NCBI RefSeq assembly: GCF_012927355.1
Contig: NZ_JABBGK010000004.1
Coordinates: 186,001-250,000, forward strand
Direction: 5' to 3'
Origin: Rhizobium terricola
GTDB taxonomy: Bacteria > Pseudomonadota > Alphaproteobacteria > Rhizobiales > Rhizobiaceae
DNA length: 64,000 nt
Below are positions 30,399 to 35,936 of this stretch, in pieces (within the stretch, counting starts at the first letter, position 1; each line of letters starts with the position of its first letter). Under the pieces are notes generated by a model, which saw only the letters and a list, made by a program, of their open reading frames with translations, was not told the DNA's origin and made no database searches. Position numbers and translations under genes: made by a program.

Positions 30399-33300
30399 AT
30401 GACCACGACCATTCCTACGCTTAGCGTGAGCCAAATCAGGAGCCTCTCGACCTCTCAGGTCGCGGCGTGGACGACGGAAGATGCGGCCGCCCTGTCGACC
30501 ACCCAGATCAAGGCCCTTTCATCGGCCCAGATCGCCGCACTCGAAACCGAAGACCTCGCCGTATTCTCGACGACCCAGGTCAGCGCGATCTCCGCATCGG
30601 TCATCGTCGGCCTCACCCTCGACCAGCTCGCCATACTCACCACCGACAAGATCGAAAACCTGAACACGGCACAGGTCGCGGCTCTGAGCACCAAGCAGGT
30701 GAACGCCTTCGACTCGTCTCAGGTCGAAGCCCTGACCTCCACCCAGGTGGCAGCCCTCACCTCCGCTCAATTGGCGACGCTGACGACCGATGAAATCGCC
30801 ACTTTCTCGACGGCCGACATCGCGGCGATCACGGCCAAGGCCCTGCCCGGCCTCTCGACGACCAACATCGCGACGCTGAGCTCGGACCAGATCGCGGCGT
30901 TGAAGACCACCCAGATTGCAGCCCTGACGACGGCCCAGATCGCCGCCCTGACATCGGATCAGGTGACCGCGCTCTCGACACTTCAGTTCGCCGCCTTGAC
31001 CTCGGCGCAGGTCAGGGCCTTGTCCACCGACAACATTGCCGCCCTCTCGACGGCGCAGATGGCAGCTCTGAGCACGAAGGCCGTTCCGGGCCTGACAGCC
31101 ACCCAGATCGACGCCCTGTCCTCGGGACAGGTTGACATCCTGTCCTCCCTTCAGATCGCCGCGCTGACGTCCACCCAGATCGCCGCGCTGACCACCGAAG
31201 ATGTCGCGACCTTCTCGACCGCCGAAATCGCGGCGATCAGCTCGGCGGCAATTACCGGCCTGTCGAGCGAAACCATTGCCGTGCTGGGCACCGGTCAACT
31301 GGCCGCGCTGAAGACCAATCAGATCGTCGCGCTGAAGACCAGCCAGGTCGCGGTGCTGACGTCCGATCAGATTGCCGCACTGACAACGGCACAACTGGGA
31401 GCCTTGACATCGCTCCAGGTCAAGGCCCTGTCCAGCACCAGCGTTCCGGCCTTGTCCTCCACCCAGATCGCCGCCCTCAGCACCAAGGCGGTCTCCGGCC
31501 TGACCTCCGCGCAGATCAGGGCGCTGACGTCCGACCAGATCGATGTCCTGTCGACCGCACAGATTGCCGCGCTGAGCTCGATCCAGATTGCGGCGCTGAC
31601 CTCGGAAGATCTCGCGACTTTCTCGAGTGCTGATATCGCCGCGATCAGCTCGTCCGCCGTGATGGGTCTGACCACGAGCAATGTTGCCGGCCTCACCTCG
31701 GAGCAGATCGGCGCGCTGAAGACGACCCAGGTCGCGGCGCTGACCACCGCCCAGATCGCCGCCCTCACATCGACCCAGATCGTTCTTCTGTCATCGACGC
31801 AGATCGGTGCGCTGACCTCACTGCAGATCAAGGCTCTGTCGAGCACCAGCATTCCCGCGCTGACGACCGACCAGATAGCCGCGCTCGGCACCAAGGCGAT
31901 CCCCGGTCTCACCTCGACCCAGATCGATGCCCTGACAAGCGCTCAGATTGACGTTCTGACCTCGGCCCAGATCGCCGCCCTGACCTCGACCCAGGTCGCC
32001 GCCTTGTCCTCCGAGGACATCGCGACCTTCTCGACCGCCGAAATTGCGGCGATCAGCGCCTCGGCGATCGGCGGGCTTTCGACCGCAAACATCGCCGGAC
32101 TGACCACCGAACAAGCCGCGGCCCTCAAGACCGCGCAGGTCGCAGTCCTGAAAACCACCCAGATCGCGGCGCTGACGACCGACCAGCTCGCAGCCCTGAC
32201 CACGCTGCAGGTCGCCGCCCTGAACTCCGCCCAGATCCGGGCGATTTCCTCGGACAGCATCCCCGCCCTCTCGACCGGCCAGATTGCCGCCTTGAGCTCG
32301 AGGGCTGTTCCCGGCCTGACATCCGCCCAGATCGACGCCTTCTCCACCAGTCAATCTGAAGCACTGACCTCCGTTCTGGTCGGAGCAATGAGCTCGGCAC
32401 AGATCGCCGCCCTGACGGACCAGGATATCGCGACCTTCTCGACGGCGGACATTGCCGCGATCGCAGCCAAGTCCGTGGTTGGACTGACCACCTTGAACAT
32501 TGCCGCTCTGAGCCCCGACCAGATAGCGGCGCTGAAGACGACCCAGATCGCGGCTCTGACCACGGTTCAGGTCGCCGCTCTTACACCGTCGCAGATTTCG
32601 AACCTGAGCACGTCCCAGATTGCCTCACTCACCCAGGCGCAGGTCGCAGCACTGACGGACGACAATATCGCGGCTCTTTCGACCGCACAGGTGGCAGCCC
32701 TCAGCACCAAGGGTGTTACCGGCTTCACCAGCGCGCAGATCGACGCCCTCTCCGTCATCCAGGTCGAAGCCCTGACCTCCGCCCAGATCGCCTATCTGAC
32801 ATCGGCGCAGATCGCAGCCCTGAGCACCGCGGATCTTGCCAGCTTCACGACCACCGAAATCGCCTCGATCAGCACGCTCGGGATTGGTGGCCTCTCGTCC
32901 GACAACCTCGCGGCTTTGAGCTCGAACCACACGGCGGCACTGAAGACCAGCCAGATCGCGGCGCTGAAGACCGGCCAGATCGCTGCACTCACCTCAAGCC
33001 AGATCGCGGCCCTGACGGCGACCCAGTTCGGCGCCCTGACTTCAACGCAGATCAAGGCTCTTTCCACCAGCAGCATCGCCGCTCTTTCGACCGACAAGGT
33101 CGCGGCACTTAGCACGACAGCGGTTGCCGGCCTGACCGCCGCCCAGGTCGAGGCTCTGTCACCCGAGCAGGTCGACGTCCTGTCGTCCGCTCAGATCGCG
33201 GCTCTCGGATCCGTTCAGTCCGCCGCACTGACGGCAGAGGACCTCGCGACCTTCTCGGCGGACGAAATCGCGGCCCTCTCCTCGGCCGCAGTTTCCGCTC

Positions 33301-35870
33301 TTTCGACGAGCAACATCGCTTCGCTCAGCAATGAGCAGATCTCTGCGATGACGACCAACCAGTTCGCCGCCCTGTCGTCGGGTCAGGTCGAAGCCTTGAG
33401 CTCCACCCAGATCGGCAACCTCTCCACCTCGCAGATTGCCGCCTTGAGCTCGGCCGGCATTTCGGGCCTGTCGACGGCCAAGATCTCCGCGCTCTCTGCC
33501 GATCAGATTGCCGCCATCAGCACCAAGGCGATCACCGGACTGAGCTCCGCCCAGATCGAAGCCCTGTCGACGGGGCAGGCCGCCGCCCTGACCTCTGCCC
33601 TTGTCGGCGCGATGACCTCGGTCCAGATCGCCGCGCTGTCGACCGAGGATATCGCTACCTTCTCGACCGACGACATCGCAGCAATCAGCTCGACGGCGAT
33701 TGCCGCCCTCGCGACCGAGACGATTGCCGCCCTCAGCCCCGACCAGGTTTCCGCGCTCAAGACCACCCAGCTCGCTGCGCTGTCTTCGAGCCAGGTCGAT
33801 GCATTCGGCTCCGAACAGCTCGAGGCGTTCTCCACCCTCCAGATTGCCGCATTGAGCTCCGGCGGCATCTCCGGTCTGTCGACGGCGAGCATCGCATCGC
33901 TGACGACCGAACAGGTCGCAGCGCTGAGCGCCAAGACGATCGCCGGTCTGACCTCGGCACAGGTCGAGGCCCTGACGACCGCGCAGGTCGAGTCGCTGAC
34001 CTCGGTGCAGATCGCGGCCATGAGCTCGGCGCAGATCTCCGCGCTGAGCACCGCCGATCTCGCGACCTTCACGACCGAGGAGATTGCCGCCGTCGGTTCC
34101 GCGGCTATTACCGGCCTGTCGACCGAAACCCTCGCATCGCTGAACACCGACCAGATCGCGGCACTGTCGACAACCCAGGTCGCCGCCCTTACCGCGAGCC
34201 AGGTCGGCGCACTCGGTTCAGGACAGGTCGCCGCCCTGACGACGGCCCAGATCGCCGCGCTGACCGCGACCCAGATCAAGACCGTATCCACCGCGAATAT
34301 TGCGGCACTCTCCACGGACCAGGTCGCAGCCCTGAGTGCCAAGGCGATTGCCGGCCTCACGGCAGGGCAGATCGAGGCACTCAGCACCGATCAGATCGAC
34401 ACCCTGTCCTCCACCCAGATCGCCGCGCTGACATCGACGCAGATCGCGGCCCTCAGCGCCGACGATCTTGAGACCTTCTCGTCTTCCGACATTGCGGCCA
34501 TCGGCTCTGCGGCCCTTGCCGGATTGTCGACCGGCAACATCGCCGCCCTCAGCCAGGAACAGGTCGCGGCGCTCACCACGGCACAGATCGCGTCGCTGAC
34601 CTCCGGACAGGCCGCCGCCCTGACATCGACGCAGGTCTCCGGCCTGACGGCGGCCCAGGTCGGCGCTCTGAGCTCCACTGCCGTCGCCGGACTGACGACT
34701 GCAAGCGTCGCCATTCTTTCCTCGGAACAAATGGCGGCCCTGAGCTCGAAGGCGATCCCGGGCCTGAATGCCGCCCAGATTACCGCGCTTTCGAGCATGC
34801 AGATCGAGGTGCTCTCCTCGGCTCAGATCGCCGCCCTCAGTTCCGACCAGATCGCGGCCCTTTCCGTCGCCGATCTGTCGACCTTCACCACCAGTGAAAT
34901 CGCCGCGATCAGTTCGTCCGCCATCCCGGGCCTTTCGGCCGCGAACATCTCTGCGCTCACTGTCGAGCGTGTTGCGGTACTGACCAGCGGCCAGATCGCC
35001 GCACTGTCTGCCGCCCAGGTCGAAGCCCTGAGCTCGATGCAGGTCGGCAGCCTGACGACGGCGCAGATCGGCGCACTGAGCTCTGCCGGTATCTCCGGTC
35101 TGTCGACCGGCACGATCGCCGCGCTCTCGTCGGAACAGATTGCAGCGCTGAGCACCAAGGCCCTGCCGGGCCTGACATCCGGCCAGATCGGCGCGCTGTC
35201 GACTGCTCAGTTCGACACGCTGTCCTCGGCGCAGCTCGGAGCCCTTGGCTCAACCCAGGTTGCCGCCTTGTCGACGGGCCACCTCGCGACGCTCTCGACC
35301 GATGATCTCAATGCAATCAGTGCATCGGCGATCGCAGGTCTGTCGACGGCCAACATTGCCGCTCTGAGCACGGAAAAGGTCGCAGCCCTCTCGACCGCGC
35401 AGATGGCGGCCCTGAGCTTCAGCCAGATCCGCAGCCTGACCTCCACCCAGATCGCCGCGCTGACCACCGGGCAGATCGGCGCGCTGAATGCGGTCCAGGT
35501 GGCTGCGCTCGGCGCCGGCAACATCGCGGCACTGACCACGACTCAGGTGGTCGCCTTGAGTTCCAAGGCGCTCGCCGGCTTGACGACGGCGCAGGTCGCG
35601 GCCCTCTCGACCGTACAGGTCGAGGCTCTGACGGCATCCCAGGTCAGCGGTTTGAGTTCCATCCAGATCGCTGCCTTCGGCACCGAGGATTTTGCCACCT
35701 TCTCGACCGCCGACATCGCCTCGATCAGCACATCGGCACTTGCCGGCCTGTCAACCGAGGATATCCACAACCTGTCGAGCGAGCAGTTGCAGGCGATCAC
35801 CACCGACCAGATGGCCGCCCTCAACGCCGAGCAGATCGCAGCAATCGTCGAAGCCTACCAGTCCGTCTGA
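30399..35870 (+). CDS. Giant octapeptide-repeat protein (1823 residues), function unknown
   Basis: The whole protein except the last seven residues (VEAYQSV) divides into 227 consecutive octads of the form [ST][ST]x[QDE][IVL]x[AG][LFI], for example TSAQIAAL or STTQIKAL. Position 1 is Ser/Thr, position 4 mostly Gln, position 5 branched, positions 7-8 Ala-Leu. There is no signal peptide, membrane segment, Cys, or separate globular or secretion domain, and the start codon itself begins octad 1. Composition is dominated by Ala, Ser, Thr, Leu, Ile and Gln; Lys and acidic residues sit at fixed places of a larger period. Each octad could be a short helix capped by Ser/Thr-x-x-Gln, or half a coil of a beta-solenoid. 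ATG 30399 is 8 nt after AAAGGG; a strong terminator follows, so it is transcribed alone or from the uronate operon. Adhesin, surface layer or ruler protein are guesses only. Confidence 0.93.
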   Translation: MTTTIPTLSVSQIRSLSTSQVAAWTTEDAAALSTTQIKALSSAQIAALETEDLAVFSTTQVSAISASVIVGLTLDQLAILTTDKIENLNTAQVAALSTKQVNAFDSSQVEALTSTQVAALTSAQLATLTTDEIATFSTADIAAITAKALPGLSTTNIATLSSDQIAALKTTQIAALTTAQIAALTSDQVTALSTLQFAALTSAQVRALSTDNIAALSTAQMAALSTKAVPGLTATQIDALSSGQVDILSSLQIAALTSTQIAALTTEDVATFSTAEIAAISSAAITGLSSETIAVLGTGQLAALKTNQIVALKTSQVAVLTSDQIAALTTAQLGALTSLQVKALSSTSVPALSSTQIAALSTKAVSGLTSAQIRALTSDQIDVLSTAQIAALSSIQIAALTSEDLATFSSADIAAISSSAVMGLTTSNVAGLTSEQIGALKTTQVAALTTAQIAALTSTQIVLLSSTQIGALTSLQIKALSSTSIPALTTDQIAALGTKAIPGLTSTQIDALTSAQIDVLTSAQIAALTSTQVAALSSEDIATFSTAEIAAISASAIGGLSTANIAGLTTEQAAALKTAQVAVLKTTQIAALTTDQLAALTTLQVAALNSAQIRAISSDSIPALSTGQIAALSSRAVPGLTSAQIDAFSTSQSEALTSVLVGAMSSAQIAALTDQDIATFSTADIAAIAAKSVVGLTTLNIAALSPDQIAALKTTQIAALTTVQVAALTPSQISNLSTSQIASLTQAQVAALTDDNIAALSTAQVAALSTKGVTGFTSAQIDALSVIQVEALTSAQIAYLTSAQIAALSTADLASFTTTEIASISTLGIGGLSSDNLAALSSNHTAALKTSQIAALKTGQIAALTSSQIAALTATQFGALTSTQIKALSTSSIAALSTDKVAALSTTAVAGLTAAQVEALSPEQVDVLSSAQIAALGSVQSAALTAEDLATFSADEIAALSSAAVSALSTSNIASLSNEQISAMTTNQFAALSSGQVEALSSTQIGNLSTSQIAALSSAGISGLSTAKISALSADQIAAISTKAITGLSSAQIEALSTGQAAALTSALVGAMTSVQIAALSTEDIATFSTDDIAAISSTAIAALATETIAALSPDQVSALKTTQLAALSSSQVDAFGSEQLEAFSTLQIAALSSGGISGLSTASIASLTTEQVAALSAKTIAGLTSAQVEALTTAQVESLTSVQIAAMSSAQISALSTADLATFTTEEIAAVGSAAITGLSTETLASLNTDQIAALSTTQVAALTASQVGALGSGQVAALTTAQIAALTATQIKTVSTANIAALSTDQVAALSAKAIAGLTAGQIEALSTDQIDTLSSTQIAALTSTQIAALSADDLETFSSSDIAAIGSAALAGLSTGNIAALSQEQVAALTTAQIASLTSGQAAALTSTQVSGLTAAQVGALSSTAVAGLTTASVAILSSEQMAALSSKAIPGLNAAQITALSSMQIEVLSSAQIAALSSDQIAALSVADLSTFTTSEIAAISSSAIPGLSAANISALTVERVAVLTSGQIAALSAAQVEALSSMQVGSLTTAQIGALSSAGISGLSTGTIAALSSEQIAALSTKALPGLTSGQIGALSTAQFDTLSSAQLGALGSTQVAALSTGHLATLSTDDLNAISASAIAGLSTANIAALSTEKVAALSTAQMAALSFSQIRSLTSTQIAALTTGQIGALNAVQVAALGAGNIAALTTTQVVALSSKALAGLTTAQVAALSTVQVEALTASQVSGLSSIQIAAFGTEDFATFSTADIASISTSALAGLSTEDIHNLSSEQLQAITTDQMAALNAEQIAAIVEAYQSV
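30783..35678 (+). repeat. Twelve tandem 408-bp super-repeats (17 octads each)
   Basis: Aligned on the octad [ED][DE][LI]ATF, the protein shows a second period of exactly 17 octads (136 residues). Typical slots: 1 EDLATF, 2 STADIAAI, 3 SSAAITGL, 4 STxNIAAL, 5 SxDQIAAL, 6 KTTQIAAL, 10 TSLQIKAL, 13 STKAIPGL, 14 TSAQIDAL, 15 SSAQIDVL, 16-17 SSAQIAAL TSTQIAAL. Twelve complete copies run from residue 129 to 1760. Before them stand 16 octads, the last ten of which look like a shortened unit, and after them seven octads and the tail. Copies are well diverged in sequence yet none has lost or gained a codon. Confidence 0.95.
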
Positions 35871-35909: not shown

Positions 35910-35936
35910 CAACGGCCCCACCCTGTGGGGCCGTTG
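35910..35936 (+). terminator. Strong terminator after the repeat gene
   Basis: CAACGGCCCCAC-CCT-GTGGGGCCGTTG is a perfect 12-bp stem with a 3-nt loop, 40 bp after the stop, followed by TTCC. It isolates the repeat gene from the LacI gene. Confidence 0.8.

Follow-up and report, generated by a model that had tools for sequence, protein, structure and literature searches.

What kind of protein consists of 227 consecutive octapeptides, why do its octads recur in groups of seventeen, and what might such a protein do? These questions are raised by a gene on contig C14, found in a 64,000-nucleotide stretch of DNA (the window). The gene and its parts lie as follows.

30399..35870, plus strand: octad-repeat gene, 1823 aa from ATG to stop, PF20080 throughout
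30399..35846, plus strand: 227-octad array without indel, one short helix per octad predicted (fold predicted for residues 137-544)
30807..35702, plus strand: twelve 136-residue (17-octad) units in a single phase, residues 137-1768
35847..35867, plus strand: seven-residue tail VEAYQSV, related to the tails of Rhizobiaceae homologues
35910..35936, plus strand: 12-bp perfect hairpin, 40 bases past the stop codon (z -5.55)

An octad array of a catalogued family

Octad parsing of the open reading frame (ORF) places residues 1-1816 in 227 octads of one register with no insertion or deletion, as the original prediction had claimed, and leaves seven residues over. Column counts for the window protein give Leu at position 8 in 185 of 227 octads, Ile or Val at position 5 in 186, Gln at position 4 in 136, and Ser or Thr at positions 1 and 2 in 196 and 187. 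There are five N-x-S/T sites in the 1823 residues. The tail is a possible cap or export signal, and the hairpin is likely the terminator of the gene. Several long minus-strand frames (up to 294 aa, window positions 30519-34730) lie antisense within the gene and are expected as shadow frames of a GC-rich repeat. The gene sits between sugar-catabolism genes (UxuA, mannitol dehydrogenase, and LacI). A tie to these was rejected, since the genes beside relatives give no more than weak matches of LacI and ABC-transporter type.

The octad had been thought to belong to no described family. It is Pfam PF20080 (ALTTAQ repeat), which matches the window protein with 1186 bits (cut-off 26.4) over 78 stretches, and a solved PDB chain, 9zem_A (HeliScrew4), is made of such octads (phmmer 6.5e-18). 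That chain has 120 residues, whereas the window protein has 1823 and a 17-octad super-period. A family was thus found and a function was not: the literature search, with preprints and most subscription journals outside its coverage, returned no function or paper for PF20080 or HeliScrew4.

An AlphaFold2 model of residues 137-544 has a pLDDT of 96.4 and contains a helix of at least four residues in 49 of 51 octads. On this model the window protein very probably folds as a helical octad screw or solenoid; the solenoid of the original prediction is thereby borne out as a predicted fold, while its novelty is not, given PF20080 and 9zem. A torsion scan allows two to four octads per turn and resolves nothing finer. 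We also considered a leucine-rich-repeat or beta-solenoid protein, as PF23952 (LRR_EndoS) scores 54.7 bits (cut-off 27.9) and the PDB sequence search gives weak matches to LRR chains. The PF20080 score, the period of eight, and the model, which has no beta-strand per repeat of the PF23952 kind in residues 137-544, argue against this fold, and we rule it out as extremely improbable. No family link is shown to mesothelin or armadillo-type solenoids, the TM-score (query) being at most 0.24 among the mesothelin matches listed.

Signal peptide, anchor, and globular domain were judged by Pfam and NCBIfam scans and by eye only; by eye, no cleavable signal is seen at the N-terminus. Three other readings were dropped: phage (no match in the phage collection by tblastn), defence (no PADLOC match), and lanthipeptide (NCBIfam lanthipeptide and sigma-factor matches all below their cut-offs). 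A family of unknown function, phrog_15773, matches the window octads (2.3e-58) though tblastn of phage records gave no octad relative, which implies that phage or prophage members exist.

The super-period, its age and the predicted pitch

Identity of the window protein with itself is 0.554 at a lag of 136 residues, compared with 0.32-0.43 at the remaining octad multiples (lags up to 992 residues, multiples of 136 excluded). Counted in octads, it is 0.557, 0.544, and 0.549 at lags of 17, 34, and 51 (z 17.3, 15.0, and 14.4). When the order of intact octads was shuffled 1000 times, identity never rose above 0.439 at lags up to 60 octads; the octad repeat by itself therefore does not produce the super-period. 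The second period of 136 residues claimed originally therefore stands, with 13 full units in the protein in place of the twelve that had been given.

The units appear to be old. They share 51-56% protein identity, and at four-fold sites (within one codon box) their third bases agree at 0.41-0.46, compared with 0.39 at random, which indicates age and conservation by selection at the protein level; the earlier claim of strong selection on register, without recent duplication, is in line with this. The same values, together with recurrence of the 1823-aa length in the orthologue L040, rule out recent duplication and an assembly artefact. In L040 the best-matching unit is at the same place in only five of 12 cases, so units may have turned over between the two genes.

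Octad relatives were found at 15 loci in genome contigs (Rhizobiales and Betaproteobacteria) and in 57 plasmid records. A phylum-wide sample of 398 genomes gave 28 with matches, the own genome among them; 25 exceeded the cut-off. The 8 x 17 architecture, once considered undescribed, recurs among Rhizobiaceae and Betaproteobacteria relatives. ORF length is 8n+7 in 28 of 51 complete octad ORFs, and many Rhizobiaceae octad proteins end in a short AYQ-like tail. Strict keeping of length holds for the window gene and does not extend to all relatives: a 5-residue unit is present in L038 and L039, and the L051 ORF has one additional Leu per ~27 octads. L051:6947-17221 is a near-perfect 217-residue repeat (27 octads plus Leu) whose neighbouring units are ~78% identical; this array is apparently young beside the old Rhizobiaceae arrays. 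In G124, G163, G175, and G428, open frames with PF20080 matches reach lengths between 5,333 and 6,436 aa, with several of them in a single genome. At L079:4125-5800 two short octad ORFs beside a GT41 gene, near an intact 2495-aa octad gene, look like fragments of one disrupted gene.

The window and 47 loci yielded 52 octad ORFs, 50 with at least 500 aa and 38 after removal of near-duplicates. The shuffle, fit, and position-4 analyses used 36 of these, with L050 (a fragment) and L051 (register shifts one residue per ~27 octads) omitted. With octad-order shuffles as reference, 27 of the 36 ORFs have their strongest lag at 17 and four at 10, while 34, 58, 27, 24, and 44 each lead in one ORF; under a different shuffle, 17 is strongest in 24 of 36. 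The twelve lags with the highest mean z are 17, 34, 10, 51, 27, 44, 7, 24, 20, 41, 37, and 54, and with 0.295 turn per octad every one of them is within 0.11 of a whole turn. This value is the best fit over all lags (r 0.56). It remains best when multiples of 17 are left out (r 0.53, reached by none of 300 permutations).

We predict that one turn probably takes 3.39 octads (27 residues, ~106 degrees per octad) and that the 17-octad unit makes five turns. As the strongest spacings fall near whole turns at about this value, the 17-octad period most plausibly reflects the pitch of the screw, a simpler reading that replaces the molecular ruler suggested earlier. With 5/17 turn per octad in the window protein, octads 12 and 2 (Ala at position 4, GL ending) become neighbours, as do octads 3, 10, and 17 (Asn, Ser/Asn, and Asp at position 4); arithmetically, 5/17 is the sole k/17 that gives both sets. 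The individual genes are more varied. The first analysis, of 38 genes, had its joint maximum at 0.295 with other lines at 0.41 and 0.115, which we interpret as folded second and third harmonics, and 0.295 was the top peak in 10 of 38 single-gene fits. For a position 4 other than Gln, 27 of 36 genes show the strongest signal at 0.115 and two at 0.295. Among other possible readings, this could fit three stripes round the screw, against a simple one-stripe picture.

The period might alternatively be history only, with an ancestral block amplified before the lineages split and 17 octads having no structural meaning. Block content is similar in most Rhizobiaceae members, and unequal crossing-over can spread repeats. 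Other members, however, favour 10, 24, 27, 44, or 58 octads, which 0.295 again brings close to whole turns, and that value is also the best fit for six distant genes (r 0.69), with lags 3 and 4 elevated too. We consider the purely historical origin unlikely and retain the pitch.

Genes that accompany octad genes

A gene for a glycosyltransferase often lies near the octad gene. All five neighbour proteins scanned match PF13844 (Glyco_transf_41, GT41; 246-295 bits), four of the five also have TPR models, and the nearest matches are Xanthomonas and human OGT. Residues H218 and K388 of the Xanthomonas enzyme, which we take to be catalytic, align with His and Lys in both GT41 enzymes compared. By tblastn (E <=1e-20), 28 of the 48 octad loci contain a GT41 gene, among them the locus of the own-genome paralogue, L053. 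This count is neither independent nor complete, because some loci represent the same gene or genome (L040/L057; L041/L069/L070 come from a single genome) and several offer only short flanking sequence (L038, L048, L050, and L073). Per ORF, the gene is found at 32 of 52 and lies no more than 3 kb away in 30, in varying orientations. Four plasmid regions were inspected: the octad gene is adjoined by a "tetratricopeptide repeat protein" in L110 and by a "glycosyl transferase" in L113, a glycosyltransferase gene lies a few kilobases away in L111, and none was found by tblastn in L112.

Among related genomes, a close GT41 clade (>600 bits) is present in 29 of 30 octad-positive and none of 30 octad-negative genomes, where the Fisher value of 5e-16 is overstated because the genomes are related, and where the threshold, like the 250 bits used for the mutase below, was chosen after the scores were known. 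The sole exception, G026, has octads with neither the clade nor the mutase. Nine octad-negative relatives contain distant or weaker GT41 genes, the best with 357 bits. Beyond the genus the link is weak: of 27 octad-positive genomes 18 have GT41, as do 14 of 43 octad-negative ones, which were hand-picked and not random; G448 and G252 have real octad proteins and no GT41. In G215, G163, G187, and G124 there are frames of 2,400-3,800 aa with several consecutive GT41 catalytic matches, which appear from sequence to be multi-domain GT41 proteins; G215 is octad-negative.

UDP-galactopyranose mutase is encoded in 19 of the 28 GT41 octad loci and none of the 20 other loci, and GalE in six GT41 loci. 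Within the genus, the mutase (>250 bits) is found in 27 of 29 octad-positive genomes (absent in G016 and G045) and in none of seven octad-negative ones, and it lies within 5 kb of GT41 in 22 of 27. There are 30 mutase matches above 250 bits. Of these, 21 exceed the cut-off set for the model (303.75), including three from octad-negative genomes beyond the genus (G039, G047, and G054). Mutase and glycosyltransferase flank the octad gene on opposite sides in L061-L064, and the mutase sits between the two in L074, which shows that the genes do not form a single fixed operon. The own genome encodes GalE, mutase, GT41, and a 1439-aa octad paralogue together (G000:C1, ~366-376 kb). A tblastn search of all 64 kb of the window gave neither a GT41 nor a mutase partner, and the orthologues of the window gene (L038-L042, L049, and L057) also lack adjacent glycosyltransferase or type I secretion system (T1SS) genes.

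These neighbours lead us to favour glycosylation of the octad protein by the GT41 partner. Ser/Thr at octad position 1 is also accounted for by helix capping, which counts against that reading. An exported or surface rod could also be unglycosylated, the GT41 enzyme modifying another protein such as flagellin and the locus being shared as a cell-surface island. The L052 GT41 gene is among flagellin genes, GT41 is absent in nine of the 27 octad-positive genomes beyond the genus, and the TPR glycosyltransferase FlmG has flagellin as its substrate (PMC7591256). Against this stand the distribution of the close GT41 clade and the neighbourhood kept across differing gene orders, and we judge an unglycosylated rod rather improbable.

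We predict that the octad rod is exported by a T1SS, a route to which we give somewhat better than even chances. T1SS genes adjoin octad genes at three loci. In Duganella (L051), downstream of the octad gene come a T1SS-type ABC gene (best model TIGR01846, 636 bits, below the cut-off of 726) and an HlyD gene above its cut-off (TIGR01843, 312 bits), and the C-terminus of the octad protein resembles FrpC (6sjw, 1.6e-39). Homologues of this ABC-HlyD pair adjoin the octad gene of a Comamonadaceae member (L048), and on a Pseudomonas plasmid (L110) genes for ABC, HlyD, and TolC lie ~3 kb from it. The octad proteins of L044, L045, and L047 have, by eye, an acidic, EF-hand-like end that resembles the one in L051; Pfam EF-hand scores are below cut-off and, among these three, occur in L044 only. 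The own genome has three HlyD genes above cut-off, each near a T1SS-like ABC gene, two of these ABC genes exceeding the PrtD cut-off. No T1SS genes were seen beside the window gene or the Rhizobiaceae octad genes, and the window protein has no GGxGxD motif and no RTX model in the Pfam scan.

Some of these observations could also be explained by an intracellular scaffold or structural rod, for example one that organises the cytoplasm or division apparatus. The N-terminus has no cleavable signal by eye, Rhizobiaceae members lack an adjacent T1SS gene, and GT41 enzymes are cytoplasmic. The three loci with T1SS genes at octad genes and the FrpC-like end in L051 point outward, and we regard an intracellular rod as quite unlikely. 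An extracellular fibre, proposed originally as a surface or biofilm fibre, is the best-supported kind of role.

Flagellin genes (Pfam Flagellin_N/C) occur at two octad loci. In L052:1673-16552 they are near the octad gene with the GT41 gene between, and in L048:473-9866 one lies past the T1SS pair from the octad gene.

Proposed role and known systems

The best explanation, to which we give an even chance, is a helical rod that receives O-linked sugars in the cytoplasm and then leaves the cell by type I secretion. The octad protein would be a long rigid rod, a screw with one short alpha-helix per octad, whose blocks may duplicate by whole turns. Rich in Ser/Thr and made in the cytoplasm, it would be O-glycosylated there by the TPR-GT41 enzyme; from sequence alone, O-linkage is more likely than N-linkage because the window protein has only five N-x-S/T sites. 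In Rhizobiaceae the sugar is probably derived from galactose, as UDP-galactofuranose made through GalE and UDP-galactopyranose mutase; galactofuranose itself as the donor is possible, at a little under even chances. We know of no GT41 enzyme that transfers galactofuranose to protein, and no paper on such transfer was found, judged by title. The rod would then leave through a T1SS, a route we infer for Rhizobiaceae, and may serve extracellularly as an adhesive or matrix fibre. The window gene would be an orphan copy that uses the enzyme encoded by its paralogue's locus on another contig. What the analysis establishes is the repeat with its period and family, the gene neighbourhoods, and the co-occurrence of the partner genes; role, export, glycosylation, donor sugar, and pitch follow by inference.

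More tentatively, and with the chances against it, we suggest an undescribed secretion-coupled glycosylation system. GT41 would decorate the octad screw prior to its type I export, using galactofuranose in Rhizobiaceae, and the product would be an extracellular rod striped with sugar, tens of nanometres in length, with 17 octads as an exact five-turn repeat. We consider the partner genes and the pitch to be new here, the octad family itself being already catalogued. If the proposal is true, the PF20080 repeat family gains a function, the octad rod joins flagellin and HMW adhesins as a GT41-type substrate, the donor sugar is perhaps new for GT41, and the pitch of a natural rod becomes readable from its sequence alone.

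Three known systems are comparable. With type I cargo such as FrpC, L051 shares an FrpC-like end and ABC/HlyD genes, whereas the window protein has no FrpC-like domain. Flagellin leaves the cell by the flagellar route. The enzyme gene adjoins the presumed substrate gene in 28 of 48 octad loci, as in FlmG-like systems, the window gene not being among them. FlmG of Caulobacter (PMC7591256) binds flagellin through its TPR part; it is a cytoplasmic TPR and glycosyltransferase enzyme with a dedicated extracellular polymer substrate, as proposed here, and differs in that the substrate is flagellin and the donor pseudaminic acid. The HMW1C/HMW1 system (PMC3012730 and PMC3983070) is N-linked and uses two-partner secretion, whereas the octad protein has only five N-x-S/T sites; it resembles our proposal in that a GT41-related enzyme modifies a large exported adhesin.
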